In this document: piece by piece, positions 21,357 through 37,193 of the stretch | Layout: each line of letters begins with the position of its first letter | Position numbering within the stretch: the stretch's first letter is position 1 | Assembly: GCA_031082145.1 (NCBI GenBank) | Contig: JAVHLP010000016.1 | Location: 1-37,384 of the forward strand | DNA length: 37,384 nt | Reading direction: 5' to 3' | Origin: a bacterium | Lineage (GTDB): Bacteria; Bacillota; Sulfobacillia; UBA995 | The notes under the pieces: generated by a model | What the model saw: only the letters and a program-made list of their open reading frames with translations | Databases searched by the model: none | Told to the model about the DNA's origin: nothing | Position numbers and translations under genes: made by a program

Positions 21357-23012
21357 TCACATTCTCGCTGGCGCGCTGACCCCCAGCAGGCCCAGGGTGT
21401 TCCGCAAGGCGATCCCGGAGGCCTCGACGAGCGCCAAGCGGGCCCGGGTCAGGGCCGGGTCGTCACCCAGCACCCGGCAGCAGTCGTAGAATTTGTGGAA
21501 GGCGGTGGCCAGGTCGGTCGCGTAGCGGGTCAGGCGGTGGGCCTCCATCAGCTCGGCGGCCAGGGCCACCTCGGCCGGCAGGTCGGCCAGCTTGCGGGCC
21601 AGGGCGAGCTCGGCCGGATCGGTCAGCAGGCCGGTGTCCGGCCGGCCGGCGTCCCTCCCGGCCGCCTCGCGGAGGATGCTTGAGATCCGGGCGTGGGCGT
21701 ACTGCACGTAGTAGACGGGGTTCTCGGCCGCCTTCAGCCGCGCCAGGTCCAGGTCGAAGTCCATGGGGCTGTCGTGGGACCGCATCAGGAAGAAGAAGCG
21801 GGCGGCGTCGGTCCCCGCCTCTTCCAGGAGGTCCCGCATGAGGATGGTGACGCCCCCCCGCTTGGAGAGGCGGACCGGATCACCGCCCCGCAGGAGACGC
21901 ACCCACTGCACGGTGAGGATCTCCAGGGTACCCCGGGGATAGCCGAGGGACTCCAGTACCGCCTGCATGCGGGGGATGTAGCCGTGGTGGTCGGGGCCCC
22001 AGAGGTTGATCAGCTTCTCGTGCCCCCGGCGCAACTTGTCAACATGGTAGGCGGCGTCCGGCAGCAAGTAGGTGTACTCGCCGTCCGACTTCACCACCAC
22101 CCGGTCCTTGTCGTCGCCAAAGCGGCTGGAGGCGACCCACTTGGCGCCTTCGCGGGAGTAGAGAACTCCCCGGTCCTCGAGCAGGCGCAGGACTTCCTCG
22201 ACCGTTCCCGTGCGGCGAAAGGCCGCCTCCCGGAACCAGGTGTCGAAGCGGACACCGTAGGCCTCCAGCTCCTCGCGATGGGACTTGACCAGCCGGTCCA
22301 CGGCGTACTCGCGGAGGATGGCCAGCCGGCCGGGATCCTCCAGGACCCCCGGGCCCAGGTCCCGCAGGGCTTCGTCGGCCAGGTCGACCAGGTACTCACC
22401 GGGGTAGCCACCCTCGGGGATGACCGCCGGCCTCCCCAGCCGTTCCTCCATCCGGGCCTCGAGCGACCGCGCCAGCAACTCCACCTGGCGGCCGGCATCG
22501 TTCACGTAGTACTCCCGCTCCACCCGGTGGCCAGACCACTCCAGGGCGGAAGCCAGGGCATCCCCGACCGCCGCGGCCCGGCCCGCCACCAGTACCAGCG
22601 GCCCGGTAGGGTTGGCGCTGACGAACTCGAGCAGGACGCGCCGGCCCCGGCCGGCGTCGCTCCGCCCGTAGTGGCGGCCCAAGCGGAGCACCTGCTCCAG
22701 CGCTTGCCCCAGCCAGGCGGGGTCTAGCCGGAAGTTCAGGAAGCCAGGTCCCGCCACCTCCAGTTGCCGCACCCGGGTGCCGGTGGCGTCGAAGCGGCCG
22801 GCCAGGGCCTGGGCCAGGGACCGGGGAGACCGCCCCAGCCGGCCGGCCAGCGCGAGGGCGAGGTTGCTGGCGAAGTCGCCGTGTGCGGGATCCCGGGGCA
22901 CCTCCACGGTGGCGGGCGGCAACCCCTGGCCGGCTCCCATCTCCAGGGCTACCGCCCGGTCCAGGGCCTCCCGGAGTTCCCGCTGTACCTCGAAGATAAC
23001 CGGGGTCTCCAT
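21357..23012 (-). CDS. argS: Arginyl-tRNA synthetase with degenerate HIGH motif
   Basis: 551 residues, a normal ArgRS length. It has an N-terminal additional domain (about 1-110), class I Rossmann core, WGPDHHGYIPRMQAVLESLG, RLSKRGG in the KMSKS position, and a C-terminal anticodon-binding helical domain ending NTLGLLGVSAPARM. The unusual point is the HIGH region. After FVSANPTGPL the usual HVGHxR is V140-L-V-A-G-R145, so both histidines are missing although the flanks (RAAAVGDALA) are well conserved. The enzyme charges tRNA-Arg. It follows speB by six bases, at the end of an arginine/polyamine operon. ATG at 23012 has GGAGGT nine bases ahead. Family is certain; activity of this HIGH variant is the open question. 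Confidence 0.92.
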   Translation of the reverse strand: METPVIFEVQRELREALDRAVALEMGAGQGLPPATVEVPRDPAHGDFASNLALALAGRLGRSPRSLAQALAGRFDATGTRVRQLEVAGPGFLNFRLDPAWLGQALEQVLRLGRHYGRSDAGRGRRVLLEFVSANPTGPLVLVAGRAAAVGDALASALEWSGHRVEREYYVNDAGRQVELLARSLEARMEERLGRPAVIPEGGYPGEYLVDLADEALRDLGPGVLEDPGRLAILREYAVDRLVKSHREELEAYGVRFDTWFREAAFRRTGTVEEVLRLLEDRGVLYSREGAKWVASSRFGDDKDRVVVKSDGEYTYLLPDAAYHVDKLRRGHEKLINLWGPDHHGYIPRMQAVLESLGYPRGTLEILTVQWVRLLRGGDPVRLSKRGGVTILMRDLLEEAGTDAARFFFLMRSHDSPMDFDLDLARLKAAENPVYYVQYAHARISSILREAAGRDAGRPDTGLLTDPAELALARKLADLPAEVALAAELMEAHRLTRYATDLATAFHKFYDCCRVLGDDPALTRARLALVEASGIALRNTLGLLGVSAPARM

Positions 23013-23018
23013 CGCGTC

Positions 23019-23849
23019 TCAACCTCCAATGGCCAGCAGGGCCTCGCGGACTAGTTTGGCCGCCAGGACCGCGGCTAGGTCCCCGGGATCGGGAGCGACC
23101 TCCACCACGTCCAGCCCGACCACCCGCCGGCCCCGGAGAGCCCGGACCGCTTCGAGGAGCTCGGCGGCGGACGCCCCTCCCGGCTCGGGTGTTCCGGTAC
23201 CGGGGGCAAAGGCGGGGTCGGCCACGTCGATGTCAACGGTGAGGTAGACCGGCCGGTCCCCGGTCGCCTCCAGGACGGCCGCCAGCGACGGGCCCAGCCG
23301 GCCCGGCCATAGGTGGGTATGCTCGGCGGCGTAGGCCATCTCCTCCCGGGAGGCCGACCTCACCCCGAGCTGGTGCAGCGAGCGGGGCGGGATCGCCTCG
23401 GCAACCCGCCGCATGACGGTGGCGTGGGAGAGAGGCTGGCCCTGGTAGCCGTCCCGCAGGTCGGCGTGGGCGTCCAGCTGTAGGACGGCCAGGCCGGGGT
23501 GCCGGGCCGCCAGGGCCCGCACCGCTCCCAGGGTCACCAGGTGCTCGCCCCCCAGCATGACCGGGACTTGGCCACGGCCCAGGCTCGCCACCCATTGCTC
23601 GATGAAGGCGACCGCGGCGGCGGGGTCCTCCGGCAGGGCCAGGTCGCCGGCGTCGTGCAGGTAAAGGTCTCTCAGGTCGGCGTCCAGGTCGGGACTGTAC
23701 TCCTCCAGGACGTGGGAGACTTCCCGGATGCGCCCCGGTCCCCGGGCCGTCCCCTTGCGGAAGCAGGTGGTCACGTCCAGGGGAGCCCCAAAGAGGACCA
23801 GGGCTGCCTCCTGGAGGGGAGCCCGGGCGGCGATGAAACAGCTGTCCAC
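23019..23849 (-). CDS. speB: Agmatinase (ureohydrolase family)
   Basis: About 276 residues, typical of agmatinases. The binuclear manganese ligands are visible: GGEHLVTLG, QLDAHADLRDGYQ and DIDVADPAFAPGTGTPEPGG. It hydrolyses agmatine to putrescine and urea in the cytosol. The arginine decarboxylase two genes upstream would supply agmatine, and speE between them would use the putrescine. The start is GTG at 23849, with AAGGAG eight bases ahead that overlaps the speE stop. The frame is open much further upstream, but only as a shadow of speE. The GGEHL variant and short size favour agmatinase over arginase. Confidence 0.9.
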   Translation of the reverse strand: MDSCFIAARAPLQEAALVLFGAPLDVTTCFRKGTARGPGRIREVSHVLEEYSPDLDADLRDLYLHDAGDLALPEDPAAAVAFIEQWVASLGRGQVPVMLGGEHLVTLGAVRALAARHPGLAVLQLDAHADLRDGYQGQPLSHATVMRRVAEAIPPRSLHQLGVRSASREEMAYAAEHTHLWPGRLGPSLAAVLEATGDRPVYLTVDIDVADPAFAPGTGTPEPGGASAAELLEAVRALRGRRVVGLDVVEVAPDPGDLAAVLAAKLVREALLAIGG

Positions 23850-23854
23850 GTCCT

Positions 23855-24688
23855 TTACTCCTTGATGAGTTCTTCCACGAACCGGGGCAGCACGAAGACC
23901 GCTCGGTGCAGGGCGGCCGTGTAGTACCGGGTGGGCAGGCGGTCCGCCATCGGGCCGGGCACCGCCTCGTCCAGCGGGTCCCGCCCCAGCGAGCCCACGG
24001 TGAAGCTCCAGGACCAGTTGGAGTAGGTGGGAACCTTGGCCGTGTACAGCCGGGTCACGGGGAAGCTCCGGGCGATCCCCCGGAAGGCCTTGAGCGTGGT
24101 CTGAGGGGTCACCCAGGGACACTCGGTCTGGGCGGTGAACACGCCGCCGGGGGCCAGGGCCCGGGCCACGGCGGCGTAGAAGTCCTCGTGGAACAGCCCC
24201 ACCGCCGGCCCCACGGGGTCGGTGGAGTCGACCAGGATGACGTCGAAGTCACGGGCTTCGGCCATCCGCCGGATGCCGTCGGTGACGTTTATGCGCACCC
24301 GGGGATCGTCCAGGGCCCCGCTCAGGGTCGGCAGGTATTGGCGAGCGGCGGCGATCACCCGCTCGTCGATCTCCACCAGCTCGACTTCCTCGACCGCGGG
24401 GTGGCGCAGGATCTCCCGCACCGACCCGCCGTCGCCACCTCCCACCACCATGACCCGCCGGGGCCGGGGATGGGTGAACATGGGTACGTGGACCAGCATC
24501 TCGTGGTAGACGAACTCATCCTTCTCGGTCGTCTGGATGATGCCGTCCAGTACCAGCATCCGGCCGAACTCGAAGGTATCCAGTACGGCCAGTTCCTGGT
24601 AGGGAGTCTTCTCCCGGTGCAGCGTCCCCCTCACCCGCAAGCCCAGGGTGAAGTCAGGGGTATGGATCTCGGTGAACCACAGTTCCAG
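23855..24688 (-). CDS. speE: Spermidine synthase (polyamine aminopropyltransferase), apparent CTG start
   Basis: The Rossmann aminopropyltransferase core is complete: VLDGIIQTTEKDEFVYHEML, VMVVGGGDGGSVREIL for decarboxylated SAM, ELVEIDERVI, VDSTDPVGPA, and the C-terminal AKVPTYSNWSW. It makes spermidine from putrescine. The first conventional start is TTG at 24640, which removes the conserved opening LELWFTEIHTPDFTLGLRV that matches the MELWYTEKQT start of homologues. In frame before it are only CTG codons (24688 and 24682) and then the pdaD stop, so CTG at 24688 is inferred; GGAGG lies eight bases upstream. Length from there is 277 residues. Both operon neighbours fit the polyamine pathway. 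Confidence 0.9.
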   Translation of the reverse strand: MELWFTEIHTPDFTLGLRVRGTLHREKTPYQELAVLDTFEFGRMLVLDGIIQTTEKDEFVYHEMLVHVPMFTHPRPRRVMVVGGGDGGSVREILRHPAVEEVELVEIDERVIAAARQYLPTLSGALDDPRVRINVTDGIRRMAEARDFDVILVDSTDPVGPAVGLFHEDFYAAVARALAPGGVFTAQTECPWVTPQTTLKAFRGIARSFPVTRLYTAKVPTYSNWSWSFTVGSLGRDPLDEAVPGPMADRLPTRYYTAALHRAVFVLPRFVEELIKE

Positions 24689-24703
24689 CGCTCCCGCCTC
24701 CCC

Positions 24704-25168
24704 TCAGTACCAGAGAGCCACGCCGGCGAAGACGGCGCCGACGCGGGCAACGGTGTGTTCCACCCCTCGCACGTGCAAGGCGTCCACCTGCAAGCCGCGG
24801 CTGGCCAAGGCCTCCCGGGCCATAGCGGTCACCGCCGCCTCGGCCTCCTCCCGGCCGGAGCAGCCGGAGGTCTCCATGATCACGCCCCAGCCCTCGGGTG
24901 AGAGAGCCACCGCCACCGCCGCCGCGATCAGCTGCCCGGGCTCGGTGGAGGTGATGGCGCCGTAGGCGGTGGGTACCAGCGTGCCCGGCGCGAGGTCGAG
25001 ACGATCCACCATGCGGGTGCCGGGGGGAAGGATGCTGGTCACCCGGATCAAGTTCAGATTGCCGATGCCGGCCCTCAGCAAGGCCTGGTCAAACGCGTTA
25101 AGCGGGGTGCCGCCCTCGGCGGCGGCGGCCAGCAAGGTGTACTTGGTCGGCGTGGCCAGCACGGCCAT
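24704..25168 (-). CDS. pdaD: Pyruvoyl-dependent arginine decarboxylase
   Basis: About 154 residues, a typical PvlArgDC length. The start MAVLATPTKYTLLAAA leads to GIGNLNLIRVTSILPPG and then VPTAYGAITSTEPGQL. The Ser within ITST is the expected self-cleavage residue that becomes the pyruvoyl group. GVIMETSGCSGREEAE and the C-terminal GAVFAGVALWY also match. It decarboxylates arginine to agmatine. ATG at 25168 touches AAGGAGGG, so GTG at 25162 with better spacing may be the real start. It is the first gene of pdaD-speE-speB-argS and has a TATAAT box 25 bases upstream. The exact cleavage bond is inferred from alignment memory. Confidence 0.9.
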   Translation of the reverse strand: MAVLATPTKYTLLAAAAEGGTPLNAFDQALLRAGIGNLNLIRVTSILPPGTRMVDRLDLAPGTLVPTAYGAITSTEPGQLIAAAVAVALSPEGWGVIMETSGCSGREEAEAAVTAMAREALASRGLQVDALHVRGVEHTVARVGAVFAGVALWY

Positions 25169-25192
25169 CCCTCCTTGTCGGTGCACGGGAGT

Positions 25193-25249: not shown

Positions 25250-25624
25250 TCAGCCGCCGAGCAGGCCGGCCAGTCCCCGATGGTCGCGGCTGAAGAGCGT
25301 GATGCCCTCGGCGAGGGCGGGCCTCACCATACCCCAGCCTTCGCCCGCGGCCCGGCGGGCCTCGGCCAGCGTATAGGGGAAAACCTCCACGCCAATCCCC
25401 AGTCTGGTTGGCTTGTACCTCACCAGCCGGTCCGTGAAGGTCAGGCAACTCTCCTCTAACAGGACGAGAACGTCGGCGTCGCTCATGGCCGTGGCGTCAC
25501 CTCGCGCCAGAGAGCCGAACAAGATCACCGCCAGGACGTTCGGGTCTTCCGCCAGGCCACTTGCCCATGAGCGCAGCCGGTCCAGGGCACCGGCCCGGTC
25601 AAGCTTCCAGACTCTTGTTCTCAC
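25250..25624 (-). CDS. Minimal nucleotidyltransferase paired with a HEPN protein
   Basis: About 124 residues. VILFGSLARGDATAMSDADVL is the GSx10DxD signature of DNA polymerase beta-like minimal nucleotidyltransferases. The third acidic strand is probably IGVEVFPYT. GTG at 25624 is inferred because no ATG is present. The gene then overlaps the end of the HEPN gene by 26 bases, with GAGAGGTG upstream. Such HEPN-MNT pairs are common in thermophiles and in several cases act as toxin-antitoxin systems, but this subfamily is poorly characterised. The longer frame reaching 25930 is a shadow of the HEPN gene. Confidence 0.75.
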   Translation of the reverse strand: MRTRVWKLDRAGALDRLRSWASGLAEDPNVLAVILFGSLARGDATAMSDADVLVLLEESCLTFTDRLVRYKPTRLGIGVEVFPYTLAEARRAAGEGWGMVRPALAEGITLFSRDHRGLAGLLGG

Positions 25625-25991
25625 AAAAAGCCAGCACCTCTCGGGCCAGACCGATGGCCTGCAGGGCCTCGTCCGGGGCGTAATGCCGGGAAGCCGGGCC
25701 GGCCGGATGAGCGTCCGGGTACCGGGTGGGAATGTAGTACTTGTCAAGTACCCTGGCCTTCTCCAGCAAGGCGGGCTGCGGCCGGGCCTTGTCTGGTAAG
25801 GTGGATAGCAGGTCGAGAAGCGAGTGCCCCCAGGCCACCTGGCCCCACCGCAGGTGAAGGGCTTTGAGGGCCGCCTCGCCGGCCTGGTGGGCGGCGAAGC
25901 AGGCCCAGGCATGGTCGCCGGCCTGTACACTGTGCTCGGCGTGGCGGAGGTTGTCGTGAGCCTGGTCCAGCCAGTCGCGGTACCGGTTCAC
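25599..25991 (-). CDS. HEPN domain protein (PF05168 type)
   Basis: About 130 residues, all helical. The family marks are NRYRDWLDQAHDNLRHAE at the start, WACFAAHQAGEAALKALHL (about 28-46), GHSLLDLL, and YYIPTRYPDAHP, a conserved segment in this HEPN group. It lacks the R-x4-H-x-Y RNase motif of HepT, so RNase toxicity cannot be assumed. It may form a complex with the overlapping nucleotidyltransferase. GTG at 25991 is chosen, with GGGGGG seven bases upstream; TTG at 25997 is also possible. Confidence 0.75.
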   Translation of the reverse strand: MNRYRDWLDQAHDNLRHAEHSVQAGDHAWACFAAHQAGEAALKALHLRWGQVAWGHSLLDLLSTLPDKARPQPALLEKARVLDKYYIPTRYPDAHPAGPASRHYAPDEALQAIGLAREVLAFCENKSLEA

Positions 25992-26039
25992 CCGCAATCC
26001 CCCCGTCCGGAGAACCCTGCGCCCCGACCGTTCACCTTC

Positions 26040-26080: not shown

Positions 26081-26494
26081 CTACAGCAGGGCGGACGGCG
26101 AGACCCGCTCAACCCCTAGCCGGTCGAAGTCCCGGTCGAACGAGCACACCGCTTCGCCGTGGGTCCGGACAAGCTCGGCCAGGAAGGCGTCCACAAAGGG
26201 TACGTTGCGGTCCTCCATCTGGCCAAGAGCGCTGACCAACAGACCGCCGTCCTGGGTTACCACACCCTCAGCCATTATCAGCGAGACCAGCGCTTGTGAG
26301 ATCTGCCGGCGGGAGAAGCCATAGTAGGAATCCAAAACCCATGCCGCCTCGGCAACGACCAGCGGGCACAGGCGCAGTTCGAACTCACCCTCCTTGGCCC
26401 GGAGGAAGACGGCGAGGGCAGCCCTGGCCTGCTCGGGCTGGTCCCGGGTCAAGAACCGGATCAGCACGTTGGCGTCCAGCCAGAGCGGCCGCAT
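26081..26494 (-). CDS. PIN-domain ribonuclease (VapC-like toxin)
   Basis: 137 residues. PIN acidic residues appear in LWLDANVLIRFLTRDQ, VVAEAAWVL, NVPFVDAFLAEL and CSFDRDFDRL. This is the four-acidic-residue magnesium site of VapC-type RNases. It follows the AbrB-like antitoxin with a one-base overlap (TAATG), the normal antitoxin-first order. The frame is intact. Targets in VapC families are tRNA or rRNA; the target here is unknown. Confidence 0.83.
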   Translation of the reverse strand: MRPLWLDANVLIRFLTRDQPEQARAALAVFLRAKEGEFELRLCPLVVAEAAWVLDSYYGFSRRQISQALVSLIMAEGVVTQDGGLLVSALGQMEDRNVPFVDAFLAELVRTHGEAVCSFDRDFDRLGVERVSPSALL

Positions 26495-27706: not shown

Positions 27707-29197
27707 GTGCCCCTGGACCGCCGCAGCCCGCTGGAGGAAATGCCCGAGGCCAACTACCTGGTAGGTCACCAGGACGGGGCCTACTATCGCCTGATCGTTC
27801 GCTTCTTCTACGAACGTCACCGCGCCCACGCCAACTACGTTCGGTCCGACGAGATCAAGGCTCACTTGCAGCAAGTCTTTCCCGACTACGGCGAGACAGC
27901 CTGCCTACGGCACTTGGACCAACTGGAACGCTGGCGGCTGGTCCGGCTCCTGCCGGAGCAGTCTCGACCGCGCAACCTCCTTGAGTTGAGGCAGCGGCCC
28001 CGGACCTACCAGGCCGAGCGGCTGACCCTCAAGTTGGAGGAACTCCGGGTGAGAGAAGAGGCGGCTGCGAGCGCGGCCGCCTCGCTCAACCCGACCGCCC
28101 TAGACGATTTGGTCGAGCGTTTGGAAGACCTGGTGAAGGGGCTAGCCGAAACCGGAATCGAGACAGGGGAAGAGCATATCTACGAGCTGTGGCAAAGCGC
28201 CTGGCGGGCCTTTGAGGGTTTCGCCCGGGACGTAGAGACATACCTGGCCGACCTGCCCCGCCACAAGCCACAACAGACGCTGGACTACCTCGGTTTCATG
28301 GGATACCGCGACTTGGTCACCCGCTATCTCTCGGAGTATGCCCGCCGGCTCTTTGATCGCAAGGGGTACTTGCGCCACCTCCTGCTTGATCTGCCCGCCG
28401 TGGCCGACCGGTTAGCCAGCAGGCTGGCGGCGGTGGCGTCTCGCCAGGTGCGGGCCGACGGCTCCACTCCCGGGTTCGATGCCGAGCGGGATCGGTACCT
28501 GGGGGACCTGGCCGCCCTTCAAGGGTACTTCACCGAGGGCGGGGATGCGGAGACCCTCCTCGAGCGGGCCCAGGGATGGGTGGCCGAGGTGACCCGCCAC
28601 GCCCGGCGGCTCAGCGAGCAACACCGCGGGGGCACGGTCCGGGAGCAGACTCTGCTGGAACTGGGCCGCAGGTTTGCGGGTCTCACCAGCGGGGTGGAAG
28701 CTCAGAGTCTGGCCCAGGTTGCCTTCGGGGCTACCCTGCCGCTGCACTGGAGAGGACCCGCTCCCGCTTCAGTGTCGGCTGTGGCCTGGGCGATCCCACC
28801 CGTTAGAATACGCCTGCAGCCTGTCCGCAGGGGACAGCGGCTGCGCGTCCCAACCGACCCCACTATCGATCGGACGGCCGAGCAGTTCCGGCGCCTGCTC
28901 GAGGAGTCCCGCCAGCGGGAGCGCGCCGCAAGGGAGCTAGCCGCCTTGTTCGGACCAAATATGACCCTTAACCTGGGCCGACTCCGGGTACCGGAACCCG
29001 AGCACCGCCAGCTCCTGCTTCGCCTCTTGTACCAGGCTCTCTCACGGGGTGGGGCCGCGAGCATGGGCTACCGCCACTGGCTGGTGACGGTTGAGGAGGA
29101 AGGCACCCAACTCGGACAGCTACGGGCCCCAGACGGCACCCTCAGCCTGCCGGGCTATGTCCTGCGCCTGCGGACGGGAGTCAGGGACCATGGCTGA
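27707..29197 (+). CDS. jetA: Wadjet type I subunit JetA (DUF2397, kleisin-like)
   Basis: 496 residues. The N-terminal winged-helix region (about 22-115) includes YYRLIVRFFYERH, a CLRHLDQLERWRLVRLL helix-turn-helix and RPRTYQAERLTLKLEEL, as in DUF2397 (TIGR02677) proteins. A long helical middle follows, with the C-terminal kleisin-like region ending GYVLRLRTGVRDHG. In Wadjet, JetA bridges the JetC SMC heads with JetB to extrude DNA loops and detect small circular plasmids. GTG at 27707 has GAGGTGA four bases ahead. The jetB start overlaps its last codons. Subunit call rests on sequence pattern plus the complete four-gene order. Confidence 0.88.
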   Translation: MPLDRRSPLEEMPEANYLVGHQDGAYYRLIVRFFYERHRAHANYVRSDEIKAHLQQVFPDYGETACLRHLDQLERWRLVRLLPEQSRPRNLLELRQRPRTYQAERLTLKLEELRVREEAAASAAASLNPTALDDLVERLEDLVKGLAETGIETGEEHIYELWQSAWRAFEGFARDVETYLADLPRHKPQQTLDYLGFMGYRDLVTRYLSEYARRLFDRKGYLRHLLLDLPAVADRLASRLAAVASRQVRADGSTPGFDAERDRYLGDLAALQGYFTEGGDAETLLERAQGWVAEVTRHARRLSEQHRGGTVREQTLLELGRRFAGLTSGVEAQSLAQVAFGATLPLHWRGPAPASVSAVAWAIPPVRIRLQPVRRGQRLRVPTDPTIDRTAEQFRRLLEESRQRERAARELAALFGPNMTLNLGRLRVPEPEHRQLLLRLLYQALSRGGAASMGYRHWLVTVEEEGTQLGQLRAPDGTLSLPGYVLRLRTGVRDHG

Positions 29198-30419
29198 CCT
29201 CCCCGAGGAGCGAGCGATGGCCCTGCAGGACCTTCTTGATCGGATCCTGGTGACGCGGGCGGATCAGCCCGACAGCTACCGGCGAGTCCATCTGCACCAG
29301 CGTTTCCTCCGGGCCTGGTTCATGGATCGCCCGGCCTGGCGGCTGCTGGTTGGCCCCGGCAGCTACCGGCTTGAACGGCTGCCCTCCCAGGTGCTACCTG
29401 AGCGCGGGCTGCCCCGCTTGCGGGGGCCGCTGGACTACGCTTGCCTCTGCTGGATCCTGTGGTTTGCCGAGTCCCACTCGGCGGGCACAGAGGATTGGTT
29501 CTTGCTGTCCGGGTTAGCTTCCGAGGTTACCCGGGTCGCCGATGGCCTGTTCTCGCTGGGCGAACGCGGCCACCGGGAATCCCTGGTGCGAGCGCTGCAG
29601 TTCCTTGAAGAACTGGGGATCCTCAACCACGGGGACGGTGACCCGGGGCTGTGGGTGGGGCAAGAAGGCCAAGCCGACGTTATTTATGACTTCGCGCCGG
29701 ACGCCCCCCGCCTGCTGGCCGATTTCGACTACCGGGGTCTTGATCGCCTGCGGGAGCCACGGCAGGGCCCTGTCCTGCGTTGGACCGGTGAGACGGTCCC
29801 TCCCCGCTCCCGGGCCTGGCGCGCGCTGCTACTGGGACCTGCCTTCTGGCGGGCCGACGACCCGGACGCTTTTGCCACGCTGGAGGAGGCGGAGGAGAGG
29901 TTTCGCGGCGACCTTGACGGGCTACCGGGTTGGGACTTGGAGGTCGGCAGGGATCACGCCCGGATCTGGCGGACCGCGACCGGCCGGGCCGCCAGTGTCC
30001 TGCTGGATCTCGGTGAGACCGGGGGCGACCGGTCGATCAAGCATATCTACCACCCCATCCTTCTCCTGCTGGCCATAATCCGGGAATGGCTGGCCACGGG
30101 CCGCTTGGCGGTAGGGGATAACGGGACGGTGGTGGTGGGAATTGGCGACCTCGAGGATGCGGTGTGGGAACTGAGGCAGAGCCACCGGCGGGACTGGGGA
30201 GTTGAGCTGGGAGATCAGATGAGCTCGGACCAACTCGCACGGCAGGTCTTCCGTCAGATGCGAGAGATGGGTTTCCTCAGGGGTCCCGACTCCCTGGGCC
30301 GGTGCTTCCTGCTGCCGGCAGCCGCGTTGGCGATCGGGGAGTACCCTCCCGCGACCAAGGTCGCCGCAGTGGACCGACCCGAGCAACTGCCGTTGTCCTT
30401 CGAGGAGGCGGAGCAGTGA
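29190..30419 (+). CDS. jetB: Wadjet type I subunit JetB (DUF2398, MukE-like)
   Basis: 409 residues. The start ALQDLLDRILVTRADQPDSY with VHLHQRFLRAWF and DRPAWRLL matches DUF2398 (TIGR02678). Helical and winged-helix segments follow. It should be the MukE-like subunit that binds the JetA kleisin and DNA. ATG at 29190 overlaps the jetA stop by eight bases. The final TGA overlaps the jetC GTG, so all four genes are probably translated together. No catalytic motif is expected and none was seen. The longer frame from 29091 is a shadow of jetA. Confidence 0.88.
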   Translation: MADLPEERAMALQDLLDRILVTRADQPDSYRRVHLHQRFLRAWFMDRPAWRLLVGPGSYRLERLPSQVLPERGLPRLRGPLDYACLCWILWFAESHSAGTEDWFLLSGLASEVTRVADGLFSLGERGHRESLVRALQFLEELGILNHGDGDPGLWVGQEGQADVIYDFAPDAPRLLADFDYRGLDRLREPRQGPVLRWTGETVPPRSRAWRALLLGPAFWRADDPDAFATLEEAEERFRGDLDGLPGWDLEVGRDHARIWRTATGRAASVLLDLGETGGDRSIKHIYHPILLLLAIIREWLATGRLAVGDNGTVVVGIGDLEDAVWELRQSHRRDWGVELGDQMSSDQLARQVFRQMREMGFLRGPDSLGRCFLLPAAALAIGEYPPATKVAAVDRPEQLPLSFEEAEQ

Positions 30420-33400
30420 ACCTGTGGTCCCCGGACGAGGCCCGGCTAGAGCCGGTCCGCCTGGCCATCCCCGGTGGCCCGGCCGGCTGGCATCCCCATC
30501 GCTTGATCTTCCGCGACTGGTGGCACTGGCGGGACTACGAACTGGGTTTCGCCCACGGCCGGCTTGGCCTGACCGGCCCCAACGGCAGTGGCAAGTCTAC
30601 CCTTCTGGCCCTGACCTTGCCCACCCTGCTGGACGGCGACACCAGCTCCCGACGGCTTGACCCGACCGAGAGCCGTGACCGCCACCTCGACTACTACCTC
30701 CTGGGTGACGACGACATCGACTCGGATTTCCATTACGAGGCCCGCACCGGGTATCTTGCCCTGGAGTTAAGGCACGGGCAGTCCGGCCACTTCCTCACCA
30801 TCGGTATGGGGGCGAGCGCTTCCCGGCAGCACCAACGCCGCCTGAAGGATTGGTGGGGCTTCGTCATCCCCGGGCGCCGGTTGGGCCGGGATCTCGACGT
30901 GCGCGGCAGTGACGGCACCTGCCTGGGTTGTCGGGATTTCGGCCGTCAACTCGAAGCCCCCGCGGTGGTCACCGCCGAGAGGGGAGAATACCGCCGGCAT
31001 GTGAACGCCCACCTGTTCGGGGTCAGCGATGAGGACTTCCGCGAGCTGATCGCCATGCTACTGGCCGCTCGCCGACCCAAGTTGGGGGAGCAACGGGGGC
31101 CCGAAGAGGTCTGCCAGCGGCTGCTCGAGTCGCTGCCGGGAATCTCCAAGGACCGCCTGGATCGGGTGGCGGAAGTGGTCCGCAATATCGAGGATTATCA
31201 ACTGAATCTGGAGGAAGTCGCCCGCCGCGCGGAACGGGTGGAAGCCATCGACAGGCTCCAGTTGGACCTGGCCGAGGGGCTCGTCCAGGAGGCGGCCCAG
31301 CAGTATGCGAAAACCGTTGGGAGCCTGGGAAACGTGGTCGGCCAGCTCAAGGAAGCCCGCGAGATTTACACCAACGCCGGACAGCAACTGGAGATCCTGG
31401 CCCGGGAGGCAGAACGACGCCAAGCCCGCCTGCGGGAGATCGCCGCCGCGCGGGAGGTTTTCCAGGCCGCCCCCGAGGCCGATCTGCCCGATCAGTTAGC
31501 CCGCGCGCGGGCGGAAGTGGAGAAGTCCGCCGGGCGGCGGGGTGAGCTCGCCGGCCGGGTCGACAAGCAGCGCCGGTTGGTGGTGGACGCCGGGCAGGAA
31601 CTAGAGGCCAAGGCCACGGCCTTCAGGTCGGTGGCCCTGAGCTTGCGGGGCCGGTTGACGGCGGCCGCCCGGCAAGCTGAAGCCCTGGGCTGGGACGGTG
31701 GAGCGAGCGGGCTCACGGTGGCCGCGGCGGACTTGCCGGGCCTCGCCGTCACAACCCCTGCGCCGGAGATCTTGGCCAGTCGTCCGAACGCCACCCTGGA
31801 GCCGGAAGGCCGTCACCTGGTTGGCAGCTGCCGCCGTCTGGCGGCCCGCCACCGAGCACTGGCCGAGGCGGAGACCACCTACCGTCGCCACCAGGAGGTG
31901 GTCGTCGACCTGCGAAAGCAACGGCAGGGCCTCTCCGACCGGCTGAACGCCACCCAGGATCAGGTCGACGAAGGCCGCGATCAACTGGTTCGCGGGCTGA
32001 ACGAGTGGCGAGAGGCCAGCCCGGCGGCGGAGGTGCCGGACCACGTGGTGGCCGAGGTGATTGCGGCGGTGGCGGGGTTGACGGTGGCGCCGGCCGGGGG
32101 CCAAGCGGAGTTGTCGGCCCCCATCCGGGCAGCAGCGCACGCACGGCGGCAGGAACTGGAACGGGCCCAGCAGGAGACCTTCTTCCACCAGGCTCAAGTT
32201 GACCACAGACTCCAGGAGCTGTCGCAGCTCCTGGAGGATCTCGCGCGGACGGGACTGGTACCGGCTCGCAGCAGCCTCCGGGCGGCCGCCCGGGCGGGCG
32301 GGGACGAAGACCGGCCACCCCTCTTCCGTTGGGTGCGGTTCCGCCCGGAGGTGGATCTCGAAGTGGCGGCCCGAGTTGAGGCTGCTGCCCTGGAAGCCAA
32401 CCTCCTCGATCTCCTGCTGGACCCGGCCGGCGACGCCTACCTGATCCCTGACCCCCTGCCGGCCGGACCTACCCTGCTGGAACTGCTCGAGCCGGAGGAA
32501 GGTGCCCCGGCGTCGGTCCGCGCGGCTCTGGCTTCGGTGGGATGGGGCGTAGGGCAGGGTGCCCGCTGGATAGCGCCTGATGGGAGTTGGCGAAACGGGC
32601 TGGCCCGGGGTCAGGTCATGCCCTGGCTGATCGAACCCCTCCAGTTGGTGGGTGGCGACCGCCGGGCGGCCGCACTCAGTCGTCGCCGGGCCGAACTCCG
32701 GGAGTTGCGGTCGGCAGCCGCAGCCCGGAAGGCGGCGATCCTGGACGACCGGGAGGAGCTGCGGGATCTTGCCGCCCGGGTCGACAGCGAACTGGCTTTG
32801 CTGGACCGCCTGCCCTGGCAGGCACTATTCGGTGAACTGGCTGCATTAACATCGCTGCAGGCGCAGGTGGCCGCCGCCAGCGCCCGGGTCGAGGCGGCGC
32901 GAGCCGAGGAGCAGGCCGCCCAAAACCGTTACCAGCAAGAAGAGAGCGGGTACACGGCCGCTCTAAAGGAGCTACCAGCTCTTCGCGGGCTTGACGACCG
33001 CCAGCTCTCGGACCGGGCGAGTGAGCTCGAGCGGTTGCTGGATCAGGTGGTCGCTCTGGCGGACAACGGCTACCGCGAACTCGTCACCGGGTCGAAGAGC
33101 TACCGCGAGACAGAGGCATTCTTGACCCAGCTCAGAGACACCCTGGGGCACCTTGATGGCGACCGGGCCGCTGCCGAGGAAGAGTGTTCGGCCGCCCTGG
33201 CCCGAGCGAAAGCCTTGGAACAGCTGATGACCGATCCCGACGTGATCGCCCTGCAGGAGCGAATCGGCGCCCTGGACCGCGAGCAGCGCGAGCTGCAAGG
33301 CATGGAGGAGGGAGTTCCCGGCGAGCGGGCGCGCTTGCAGGCAGATCGCGGAGTTAAGGCGATGCGGATCGCTGAACTGGAACCACGCGAGGAGGAGCTC

Positions 33401-34549
33401 CGCGCCGAACAGGCGGACCGGTTCCGGCGACTGCAGGACCGGCTAGGACTGCACCCCACGCTCGAGCCACTCCTGGAGGCTCTTGCGGGGGAGGGACCGG
33501 TGCCGGTCCTGGCCCGCCTGCCCCGGCCCATAGAAGGGGACCGCTTGGAGGAGGTATTGGGCGAGCGCAAGTCGGCCCTGATGGCCGAGCTTCACCAGCA
33601 CCGGGACGCTCTCGGCGATTACCGGCCGACCCCCAATGCCCAGTGGGAAACGGTGATCTTCTACCAGGATCGCCGGGCTCTGACCGCGACCGAGCTCGGC
33701 CTGCAGTTGCGGGAGGCCGCCGACCGCTACCGGACCCTCATTGCCGAGAAGGAGCAGGAACTCTACCAGGACATTATCTATCAGGGAATGCTCGATGATC
33801 TGAGTAAACTCATGCGCAGGGCCCGCCAGTTCACGGCCGACACCAACACCACTCTCAGGAAAATCCCTCTACCCAGCGGGGAGTGGTTTTCCCTGCGCTT
33901 GACGACTTTGCCGCCGGATGCAGCCCCGGGCGCGGCCATTGCTCGCACCCTCGAGGATGTCAGCCAGGGCACTGAGTGGCTCAGCACCGAGAGGCGGGAG
34001 GTGTTGTTGGGCCAGATCCGGGGCGAGGTCGAACGAGTGAAGCAGGAGTCGCGGGGTCGAGGCGAGGATCTTGACTTCTACCAGGTCATCGAGCGGGCCC
34101 TGGACTACCGTCGCTGGCATCGGTACGACTTGATGAGCCACCGGCCGGGCGTGCAGGCTAAGCCCATCGGCCGTCGGGGTTTCGGCACCCGGAGCACGTC
34201 GGAGAAAGCCTGGGCACTGGCGGTGCCCATCATAGCCGGGGTGGCAGCTCGTTATGGGAATGCCCGGCCGGACGCCCCCCGGGTGATCGCCCTGGACGAA
34301 GCGTTCGCCGGCTTCGACCCGGCCAATCAGGTCAACTACCTGAGGTTTCTATCAGAGCTTGGGCTGGGCTGGATTCTTACCTGCCCCGACGAACTGCCAT
34401 ATAGCGAGTTCCTGTCGGCGGCCATGGCCTACCGGCTAACTCTTGAGGGCGCCGTCCACGCGGCCTTCCCCATCCTCTGGGACGGCCATCGGGCCTTGGA
34501 GCCGCTGGCCGAGTGGTCCGAGGCGGCGGCGGGGGAGGATGGGCGATGA
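30416..34549 (+). CDS. jetC: Wadjet type I SMC ATPase JetC (MukB-like)
   Basis: 1377 residues. Walker A is GPNGSGKST at residues 54-62. Very long coiled-coil arms rich in Glu, Arg, Ala and Leu (about 270-440 and 800-1110) flank a central hinge-like globular part (about 560-760). The head-proximal C-terminus has an STSEKAWALAVPI signature loop and Walker B VIALDEAFAGFDP with D1294 and E1295. It is the DNA loop-extruding motor of the Wadjet plasmid-defence complex (TIGR02680 type). GTG at 30416 overlaps the jetB stop (GTGA) with GGAGG upstream. Earlier in-frame starts are a shadow of jetB. All motor motifs look intact. Confidence 0.92.
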   Translation: MNLWSPDEARLEPVRLAIPGGPAGWHPHRLIFRDWWHWRDYELGFAHGRLGLTGPNGSGKSTLLALTLPTLLDGDTSSRRLDPTESRDRHLDYYLLGDDDIDSDFHYEARTGYLALELRHGQSGHFLTIGMGASASRQHQRRLKDWWGFVIPGRRLGRDLDVRGSDGTCLGCRDFGRQLEAPAVVTAERGEYRRHVNAHLFGVSDEDFRELIAMLLAARRPKLGEQRGPEEVCQRLLESLPGISKDRLDRVAEVVRNIEDYQLNLEEVARRAERVEAIDRLQLDLAEGLVQEAAQQYAKTVGSLGNVVGQLKEAREIYTNAGQQLEILAREAERRQARLREIAAAREVFQAAPEADLPDQLARARAEVEKSAGRRGELAGRVDKQRRLVVDAGQELEAKATAFRSVALSLRGRLTAAARQAEALGWDGGASGLTVAAADLPGLAVTTPAPEILASRPNATLEPEGRHLVGSCRRLAARHRALAEAETTYRRHQEVVVDLRKQRQGLSDRLNATQDQVDEGRDQLVRGLNEWREASPAAEVPDHVVAEVIAAVAGLTVAPAGGQAELSAPIRAAAHARRQELERAQQETFFHQAQVDHRLQELSQLLEDLARTGLVPARSSLRAAARAGGDEDRPPLFRWVRFRPEVDLEVAARVEAAALEANLLDLLLDPAGDAYLIPDPLPAGPTLLELLEPEEGAPASVRAALASVGWGVGQGARWIAPDGSWRNGLARGQVMPWLIEPLQLVGGDRRAAALSRRRAELRELRSAAAARKAAILDDREELRDLAARVDSELALLDRLPWQALFGELAALTSLQAQVAAASARVEAARAEEQAAQNRYQQEESGYTAALKELPALRGLDDRQLSDRASELERLLDQVVALADNGYRELVTGSKSYRETEAFLTQLRDTLGHLDGDRAAAEEECSAALARAKALEQLMTDPDVIALQERIGALDREQRELQGMEEGVPGERARLQADRGVKAMRIAELEPREEELRAEQADRFRRLQDRLGLHPTLEPLLEALAGEGPVPVLARLPRPIEGDRLEEVLGERKSALMAELHQHRDALGDYRPTPNAQWETVIFYQDRRALTATELGLQLREAADRYRTLIAEKEQELYQDIIYQGMLDDLSKLMRRARQFTADTNTTLRKIPLPSGEWFSLRLTTLPPDAAPGAAIARTLEDVSQGTEWLSTERREVLLGQIRGEVERVKQESRGRGEDLDFYQVIERALDYRRWHRYDLMSHRPGVQAKPIGRRGFGTRSTSEKAWALAVPIIAGVAARYGNARPDAPRVIALDEAFAGFDPANQVNYLRFLSELGLGWILTCPDELPYSEFLSAAMAYRLTLEGAVHAAFPILWDGHRALEPLAEWSEAAAGEDGR

Positions 34550-35805
34550 CCTGCTCTCGGGAAGCCGCCCGGCAACTGGGGGCCCGCGGACTCGGTGAAC
34601 TCCTGGTCCGGGCCCGTCAACGGGTGGAAACCCTGGACGGCGTACGAGGAACACTGGCCGTCGATCTCTCACCCCAGGCCCAGGAGGAACTGGTGAGACT
34701 TTTGGGATGGCGGGTTCCGCCCCGGAAGGGCCCGGTCCGGGTCTCCCTGGTCGAACTGGACGCGGCTCTTCGCCGGAGCCGCTTCGGGGTCTCCCTGCTC
34801 GACGTGCTGGAGGCGGACGCCGGCCCGGTGGTCACGCGGAGGGAACGGCGGCAGGCCGAGTTGGCCCACTGGCGGGCGCAACTGGACGACCTGATAACCG
34901 CAGTGCCGCAGGCGCGGGGATGGATAGAGCAGCTCGCCGGTCAAGGAGCTCCGGCCCGCTGGTACCGGAGAGCCTACCGGGAGGACTCGACCCGGGCGGC
35001 CGCGGCCGCGCTGGCCGTGGCCAAGTCTCTGGCACATATTCCGGCCGGCGGGGAACTCGTGGCCGTCTTCGCCGCCCGGGTCGCTGGTGACCCTCATCTG
35101 CTCGACGCCGGTAGCCCTGCCGGCAGCCTGCTGCTGGAGACGCTGCGCGAACGCTGGGGCCCGGTCGCCGAAGGGTTACGTCCGGCCGAGGAGCGGGCCC
35201 TGCTGCTCAACCGGGCCGGGCTGGAGGTAGATGGAGTCTCTTCAACGGTACTGCTGGCTTACCCGGGTGTGACAAGCCATCCCGTCCTGGCCGCCATGGC
35301 TGAACACGGTGGGGGATGGCCGCTTCCCCTGGGCGAAATGCGGCGACTCACAACAATACGGGCTCGCCGTAACATGGCGCACGTGGTGGAGAACCCGGCT
35401 GTGTTCGAGTGGCTGGTACGCGAGACTGCTACTCGAACTGCCGGTGACCGCCCCACTCTGGTCGCGACCGGGGGGTTCCTGAGCGCTGCGGCCGTACAGC
35501 TCCTCGACCGGCTCCGGGCGGCCGGCACCCGACTGTACTATGGCGGCGACTTTGACCGGAACGGGCTGACCATAGCCATGCAACTGGCTAGCCAGTACCC
35601 CGGGCTTATGTTCTGGCGAATGTCGGCCGATGACTACCGCCTGGCTTGCCGGGAGGGCACCCGGCCACTCAGTTCCAGCGATCGGAATTGGCTGATGACC
35701 CTGACCGGCCCACTCGCTCCGACGGCCCAAACGATGACCGCCCGGGGGACCCCCGCCTACCAGGAGAATCTCCTGGCACAGCTATTGGCCGACCTGGGCG
35801 GGTGA
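34546..35805 (+). CDS. jetD: Wadjet type I nuclease JetD (Toprim, DUF2399)
   Basis: 419 residues. The N-terminal arm-like domain (about 1-230) matches the TIGR02679/DUF3323 region. The C-terminal DUF2399 Toprim domain has HVVENPAVFEWL with E282 and YYGGDFDRNGLTIAM with D335 and D337, the metal-binding acidic residues. JetD cleaves the plasmid DNA trapped by the JetABC motor. ATG at 34546 overlaps the jetC stop (ATGA). The complete acidic set argues for an active nuclease. The gene ends before a 172-base stretch without recognisable content, then two broken genes. Confidence 0.92.
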   Translation: MTCSREAARQLGARGLGELLVRARQRVETLDGVRGTLAVDLSPQAQEELVRLLGWRVPPRKGPVRVSLVELDAALRRSRFGVSLLDVLEADAGPVVTRRERRQAELAHWRAQLDDLITAVPQARGWIEQLAGQGAPARWYRRAYREDSTRAAAAALAVAKSLAHIPAGGELVAVFAARVAGDPHLLDAGSPAGSLLLETLRERWGPVAEGLRPAEERALLLNRAGLEVDGVSSTVLLAYPGVTSHPVLAAMAEHGGGWPLPLGEMRRLTTIRARRNMAHVVENPAVFEWLVRETATRTAGDRPTLVATGGFLSAAAVQLLDRLRAAGTRLYYGGDFDRNGLTIAMQLASQYPGLMFWRMSADDYRLACREGTRPLSSSDRNWLMTLTGPLAPTAQTMTARGTPAYQENLLAQLLADLGG

Positions 35806-36407: not shown

Positions 36408-37193
36408 CAATCGAAAGCGTCGAACGGGACTTCCGAGATAAAGTTTGTTCCCAGTTGCGCAAGTGAGGGGCTTGATCGTTTCCGGGTGCTCACACCCTTC
36501 ATCTTCGATGATGGTGACCACCTCACCATAGTCCTCAAGAGGAAAAACGGGCAGTGGGTGCTGTCCGACGAAGGTCATACGTATATGCACCTGAGCTATG
36601 AACTGGATGAGAGGGACCTTCACCGGGGTACTAGGCAGAAGATAATCACGAACGTTCTTTCTACTTTCCACATCGACGATCTAGAGGGTGAGCTTGTGCT
36701 CCCCATCGAGAATGCCCGGTACGGTGATGCCCTCTATGACTTCGTGCAGGGACTCCTCAAGATCTCGGACGTCACTTACCTCTCCCGGGAGCGGATCAGG
36801 TCCACGTACCTGGAGGACTTCCACCTGTTCATCGCTGAGACCATTCCGGAATCCAAGAGGGAGTTCAACTGGCATCACCCTGAGCGGGACCCTCATGGTC
36901 GCTATGAGGTAGACTGCCGCATCAACCACGGCGTACGTCCCGTCTTTGTCTTCGCTCTCGGCACCGACGGCCGTACCCTCGACGCCACGATTGCCATCCT
37001 TCAGTTCGAGCGGTGGGGACTGGACTTCCATTCGGTAGGGATCTTCGAGGACCAGGAGGCCATCAACAGAAAGGTGCTCGCCCGACTCTCCGACGTATGC
37101 GGGAAGCTCTTCTCGGGGCTGGACGGCAATCGGCCCCGCATTGCCAGCCACCTCATCCAGCATGCCGGCCGGGAACCAGGGGCGCTCGGGTAG
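36404..37193 (+). pseudogene. Frameshifted DUF1828-like gene
   Basis: ATG 36404 reads MTIESVERDFRDKVCSQLR, then stops at 36464. The frame from 36462 continues SEGLDRFRVLTPFIFDDGDH, then WVLSDEGHTYMHLSYELDER and FERWGLDFHSVGIFEDQEA to 37193. One extra base between about 36457 and 36462 breaks an otherwise full-length 262-residue protein. The second part (from GTG 36486, 235 residues) could in principle still be made, as it is long and well preserved. DUF1828 proteins have no firmly known function to my knowledge. The overlap with the DUF6978-like gene and the place beside a Wadjet operon suggest a defence or toxin-antitoxin role, which is inference. Confidence 0.72.

Follow-up and report, generated by a model that had tools for sequence, protein, structure and literature searches.

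Among aminoacyl-tRNA synthetases of class I, HIGH is one of the two signatures that are taught and used for recognition. Altered forms of this motif have been described in IleRS and LeuRS. In IleRS2, whose motif has the swapped form GXHH, the enzyme is active and serves as a housekeeping synthetase, and the tip of the motif helix is shifted (PMC10485003). In LeuRS, mutation of HVGH to AVGA left measurable activity, and an AVGA urzyme was the most active of its series, whereas in the full-length enzyme the wild-type histidines favor catalysis (PMC10450160). Across class I structures, the HIGH histidines make few ligand contacts outside ATP complexes (PMC5919687). Our search of the open-licence literature, with subscription journals mostly outside its reach, found no paper on an ArgRS without HIGH. 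Here, we describe such an ArgRS, encoded in a 37,384-nucleotide stretch of DNA (contig JAVHLP010000016.1 of assembly GCA_031082145.1; Bacillota, Sulfobacillia, UBA995), which we refer to as the window.

RESULTS

An ArgRS with V-L-V-A in place of HIGH

The product of the window argS gene (Table 1) scored 378 bits against the TIGR00456 profile (cut-off, 262 bits) and contains, above the Pfam cut-offs, the N-terminal domain (PF03485), the class I core (PF00750), and the DALR domain (PF05746), and thus belongs to the ArgRS family by both curated profile and domain order. Its AlphaFold2 model, computed from 67 aligned sequences (pLDDT 96.1, pTM 0.94), is closest among PDB structures to the Campylobacter jejuni ArgRS 3fnr (TMt 0.94; Foldseek). 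Foldseek ranks 1-20 in the PDB are ArgRS throughout, as expected of an ArgRS fold, and matches with ArgRS, CysRS, and MetRS identify a Rossmann-type class I catalytic core.

Residues 129-151 read EFVSANPTGPL-VLVA-GRAAAVGD, so that the motif glycine is replaced (by Val142) alongside both histidines, and the model places V-L-V-A at the start of helix 141-159. The segment therefore does not carry the class I HIGH signature, and with Val and Ala at its third and fourth positions, it does not have the G/AXHH form of IleRS2-like enzymes either. In each of the five alignments examined, among 13 PDB sequences that match the protein, H-x-G-H stands opposite V-L-V-A. No HxGH occurs anywhere else in the protein, which also fails to match the class I pattern taken as PROSITE PS00178. 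The initial annotation had reported that both histidines are missing between conserved flanks at 22573-22599, and indeed the four motif codons fall within this interval. Its description of the gene as otherwise full length with an RLSKRGG loop also holds, since the 551-residue protein has all domains and a KMSKS-type loop, V-R-L-S-K-R-G-G, at residues 380-387. The role that it gave to the histidines, stabilization of the adenylate transition state, agrees with PMC10485003.

The surroundings of the motif are strongly conserved. In the 67-sequence alignment, Glu129, Ser132, Asn134, Pro135, Gly137, and Arg145 are invariant, and Ala148, Gly150, and Asp151 are at least 90% conserved; farther along, Tyr315, Asp319, Arg385, and Gly387 are invariant, and Ser383 and Lys384 are at least 90% conserved. 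The arginine-site residues, namely Glu129, Asn134, Tyr315, and Asp319, are thus all kept, their roles being assigned by yeast numbering, by which Asn134 presumably corresponds to the active-site residue Asn153 and Tyr315 and Asp319 to the putative arginine-binding pair. Residue 153 of the structure 1f7u is named in PMC5919687. In the KMSK-type loop, Leu382 occurs in the window protein and in that of another family genome (L002), and Met occupies this position in 183 of the 190 others; the loop block is the least sure part of the AlphaFold2 model. By every sequence and structure test made, the class I HIGH signature excepted, the window protein is an ArgRS.

Table 1. Positions in the window of argS and of the ArgRS segments and residues discussed in the text
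Feature	Position	Strand	Remarks
argS, arginyl-tRNA synthetase, 551 aa, ATG start	21357..23012	minus	ORF; profile, domain, and fold matches
V-L-V-A replacing class I HxGH, residues 140-143	22584..22595	minus	Codons GTA CTG GTG GCG (22595..22584)
Glu129 to Asn134	22611..22628	minus	Both ends invariant in the 67-sequence alignment
Tyr315 to Asp319	22056..22070	minus	Both ends invariant in the 67-sequence alignment
KMSK-type loop R-L-S-K-R, residues 381-385	21858..21872	minus	Leu382 replaces Met; pLDDT of loop block 67
Ala146	22575..22577	minus	Gly in HxG-keeping ArgRS, Ala in most HIGH-less ones
His245, candidate partner	22278..22280	minus	Gln/His in the majority of HIGH-less ArgRS; HxG-keeping ArgRS chiefly have Ile/Met/Leu
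Pro340 of G-x-D-H segment, candidate partner	21993..21995	minus	Ala in nearly all HxG-type ArgRS

Upstream of argS, in a block on the minus strand (21357-25186), lie genes for a pyruvoyl-dependent arginine decarboxylase, a spermidine synthase, and an arginase-family protein, so that arginine use for polyamines adjoins arginine charging. Elsewhere in the window, the minus strand encodes a HEPN protein beside a small nucleotidyltransferase (25250-25997), resembling an MNT/HEPN toxin-antitoxin pair, and a PIN-domain protein (26081-26494). Four plus-strand genes (27707-35802) match the PADLOC defense models JetA2, JetB2, JetC2, and JetD2, a set that we take to be a Wadjet-type defense system, and are followed by a gene for a DUF1828 protein (36486-37193) with a match to the candidate defense model PDC-M24B.

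The replacement segment is itself conserved

Among 221 ArgRS compared (L206 and L227 having been skipped as duplicates), 211 were distinct and full length after six sequences shorter than 480 residues were left out and four identical ones merged. The type of the window enzyme accounts for 192 of these, a set biased towards its relatives: 107 have neither histidine (hereafter HIGH-less), 50 have HxG followed by another fourth residue, 21 have the fourth histidine only, and 14 have HxGH. The pattern taken as PS00178 matched none of the 107 HIGH-less sequences and 63 of the 64 with HxG. Within the HIGH-less group, the first position is occupied by Asn (64), Val (26), Gly (6), Leu (6), Thr (3), or Ile (2); the second by Val (92), Leu (7), Ile (7), or Ala (1); the third by Val (106) or Ala (1); and the fourth by Asn (65), Ser (21), Gln (19), or Ala (2), with both of these alanines belonging to the window enzyme and L002. 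The replacement segment is thus itself conserved, and the family of the window enzyme has lost its last polar residue.

This pattern bears on the possibility that ArgRS chemistry tolerates nearly any residue in the HIGH segment, which would then have drifted with neither a reshaped ATP site nor compensation. Consistent with such relaxed constraint, ArgRS show many HIGH variants, including HMGN, the majority form in the phylum sample, as well as GIGH/TVGH, SVAH/TIAH, and HVGR, and just 14 of the 192 ArgRS in our relative-biased set retain HxGH. However, the near-uniformity of the third position (Val in 106/107) and the fourth (Asn, Ser, or Gln in 105/107) in the HIGH-less group indicates that the replacement is constrained and not free, and the groups are sharply set apart by residues 146 and 340. 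We therefore hold drift to be possible but rather unlikely.

HIGH-less enzymes differ from those with HxG at three further positions, by (i) Ala in place of Gly146, (ii) Gln or His in place of Ile, Met, or Leu at residue 245, and (iii) Pro or Gln in place of Ala at residue 340. One exception, L077, combines HIGH with Gln245 and Pro340, which shows that these residues do not require the loss of HIGH. A quick tree of 134 representatives, from whose alignment the motif columns had been removed, requires a minimum of five changes of the HIGH-less label. Nevertheless, an AU test under a mixture model (67 rows) did not reject placement of all HIGH-less rows in one clade (p-AU 0.736), and the tree constrained in this way outscored the unconstrained quick tree by 22.7 log units. 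Independent losses with compensation are therefore not established; the independent pairs available for co-variation number two to three, too few for a test. Judging from these alignments, residues 146, 245, and 340 may be linked to HIGH loss through compensation or through common descent, and because a single shared origin was not rejected, compensation is not proven. On the quick trees, three HxGH enzymes (L121, L157, and L077) fall among or beside HIGH-less ones, a placement that could reflect motif regain or mis-rooting.

The HIGH-less state is a lineage trait

All four genomes of the family encode V-L-V-A. The class sample comprised 61 genomes, own genome included, and the 52 ArgRS of the window's type read in it lack both histidines without exception; the remaining genomes had only the other ArgRS type, with HxGH (five), or no match (four). 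These counts support the suggestion in the initial annotation that some bacterial ArgRS lineages have an altered HIGH and that the change could be a lineage trait. In the phylum sample of 101 genomes (four of them of the class, own genome included, and 18 left unread, two of these without any match), 14 genomes had a HIGH-less ArgRS of the window's type, 49 had one with HxG and another fourth residue, 9 had one with HxGH (three of these also having the other type), and 11 had only the other type.

Named records place HIGH-less ArgRS in at least ten phyla, namely Bacillota, Armatimonadota, Eiseniibacteriota, Zixiibacteriota, Methylomirabilota, Poribacteria, Gemmatimonadota, Goldiibacteriota, Firestoneibacteriota, and Spirochaetota, and also in candidate division KSB1; this list derives from the best 80 of at least 583 relatives in a contig scan and is a lower bound that gives no frequencies outside the window's phylum. 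The HIGH-less state is a lineage trait. Broad conservation had been foreseen as a result that would make the variant ordinary: the HIGH-less state is indeed broad, so that the window enzyme is no isolated case, yet among the sequences compared VLVA, with its four non-polar residues, is confined to the window's family, and the broad HIGH-less clade is itself unexpected.

By analogy with mupirocin and IleRS2, a natural ArgRS inhibitor that occupies the ATP site could have driven the motif change, although we know of no such inhibitor. In IleRS2, the GXHH motif confers resistance of up to 1000-fold with only a minor cost to the enzyme (PMC10485003). Against inhibitor pressure, the occurrence of the HIGH-less state in at least ten phyla points to an ancient trait rather than a local arms race, and we consider this origin improbable.

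Other ArgRS in these samples also depart from the signature sequences. The other bacterial ArgRS type in the phylum often lacks the first histidine, showing GIGH, GVGH, GFGH, or TVGH (L213-L217, L219, L221), and two sequences have HVGR (L222, L225). Three genomes of the phylum (G079, G120, and G157) each encode a pair of nearly full-length ArgRS that differ in type (L152/L212, L162/L213, and L170/L214, respectively). Omnitrophota ArgRS (e.g., L079 3010-4680 and L087 3001-4674) have SVAH or TIAH together with MSTR for MSKR, so that both class I signatures are altered within one enzyme.

The window argS is the only one found in its genome

A search of the own genome (2,336,491 bases, 98.3% complete) with the window protein as query gave one match and no second ArgRS at E <= 0.001. 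The same query detected the divergent ArgRS type in five class genomes (E 6e-25 to 6e-18), where the window's type was not found; a second ArgRS in the own genome would therefore have been noticed. Similarly, three single-contig genomes that are 99-100% complete (G029, G030, and G049) gave a single match each, and these are HIGH-less (VLVQ, GVVN, and GVVN, respectively). Among genomes of other lineages, all 22 tested had exactly one match above the TIGR00456 cut-off; these genomes were reached via their ArgRS loci, 17 of which lack both histidines, and the remaining five have HVGH (L100, L070), SVPH (L066), SVAH (L087), or TVAH (L048). Comparison of the window argS (L001) with L002 by NG86 gave dN 0.163 and dS 0.771 (dN/dS ~0.21), which shows that purifying selection acts on the gene.

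Missing catalytic histidines are a common sign of pseudo-enzymes, and their loss here could mean that the window protein is inactive, or a paralog with another job, with Arg-tRNA made by another synthetase. This reading is very hard to reconcile with a single argS, a full-length protein with all domains, purifying selection, and the same state across the class, and we regard it as highly improbable; the combination that the initial annotation had named as decisive against its own view, a second canonical ArgRS with loss of function here, did not materialize, with one argS found and dN/dS at ~0.21. A sequencing, assembly, or frameshift artifact, to which the 34-contig assembly and the GC-rich motif might point, has next to no probability and is ruled out by three other family genomes (L002, L003, and L004), which use other synonymous codons for V-L-V-A and its surroundings and so preclude an error of one assembly, and the open frame and conserved flanks likewise speak against it.

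A genome-wide loss of HIGH was considered and rejected, since six other class I synthetases of the own genome retain HxGH or HIGN: ValRS HMGH, IleRS HIGH, LeuRS HMGH, MetRS HIGH, GlnRS HIGH, and GluRS HIGN (Pfam families were computed and the individual enzymes assigned by reading their sequences; CysRS, TyrRS, and TrpRS are outside this set). Among the synthetases read, HIGH loss is particular to ArgRS in this genome.

DISCUSSION

Taken together, the sequence comparisons make it probable that the window protein is the working and only ArgRS of its cell, that it belongs to an old bacterial clade in which HxGH was replaced as a unit, and that it makes its adenylate without the HIGH histidines. 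A broader reading, to which we lean with modest confidence, is that a large, old clade of essential ArgRS forms the adenylate and charges tRNA without the His and Gly of HIGH by means of a reshaped ATP site (Val142, Ala146, Gln/His245, and Pro/Gln340).

In such an enzyme, ATP would be held and the adenylate transition state stabilized without imidazole side chains. The stabilizing groups would be the main chain at the N-terminus of helix 141-159, Lys384 of the KMSK-type loop, and perhaps the invariant Arg145, with Val142 lying against the adenine in the place of glycine and residues 146, 245, and 340 possibly forming part of the reshaped site. ArgRS requires bound tRNA prior to activation, and this requirement could make the histidines dispensable. 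The published data on IleRS2, LeuRS, and class I ligand contacts make ATP positioning without the histidines plausible, and since the histidines favor catalysis in full-length LeuRS, a His-free ArgRS might be slow.

A sole ArgRS without the HIGH histidines, with relatives in many phyla that lack them too, suggests that this chemistry may be able to proceed without the signature. If the broader reading is true, class I synthetases would not universally require HIGH, VLVA would be the barest natural form, and a natural, essential, and widespread HIGH-less enzyme would reveal the indispensable part of transition-state stabilization. HIGH-less ArgRS would also offer natural counterparts to the engineered AVGA mutants with which the origins of these enzymes are studied, and motif-based annotation rules would miss them.

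Canonical bacterial ArgRS (C. jejuni 3fnr; Listeria L067 and L072) share the fold, the NPTG segment, the arginine site, and the KMSK-type loop with the window enzyme, whereas they carry HIGH or HLGH, together with Gly146, Leu245, and Ala340 in L067, where the window enzyme has VLVA, Ala146, His245, and Pro340. The HMGN-type ArgRS of its phylum are of the same ArgRS type and likewise lack the fourth-position histidine but, unlike it, keep the first histidine and the glycine (HxG with another fourth residue, 50/192). Its HIGH-less relatives (NVVN, NVVS, VVVQ, and GVVN) resemble it most, being without both histidines and having Val for Gly, mostly Ala146, and usually Gln/His245 and Pro340, yet they keep Asn, Ser, or Gln at the fourth position, where VLVA has Ala. 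Outside ArgRS, IleRS2 with GXHH is likewise an active housekeeping synthetase with a naturally altered class I signature, in which motif residues 1 and 3 have traded places and histidines are retained (PMC10485003), whereas the window ArgRS has neither the histidines nor the glycine. The LeuRS AVGA mutant and urzyme (PMC10450160) have a class I site that works in vitro without the HIGH histidines; they are engineered and keep the glycine, whereas the window ArgRS is natural and has lost it.
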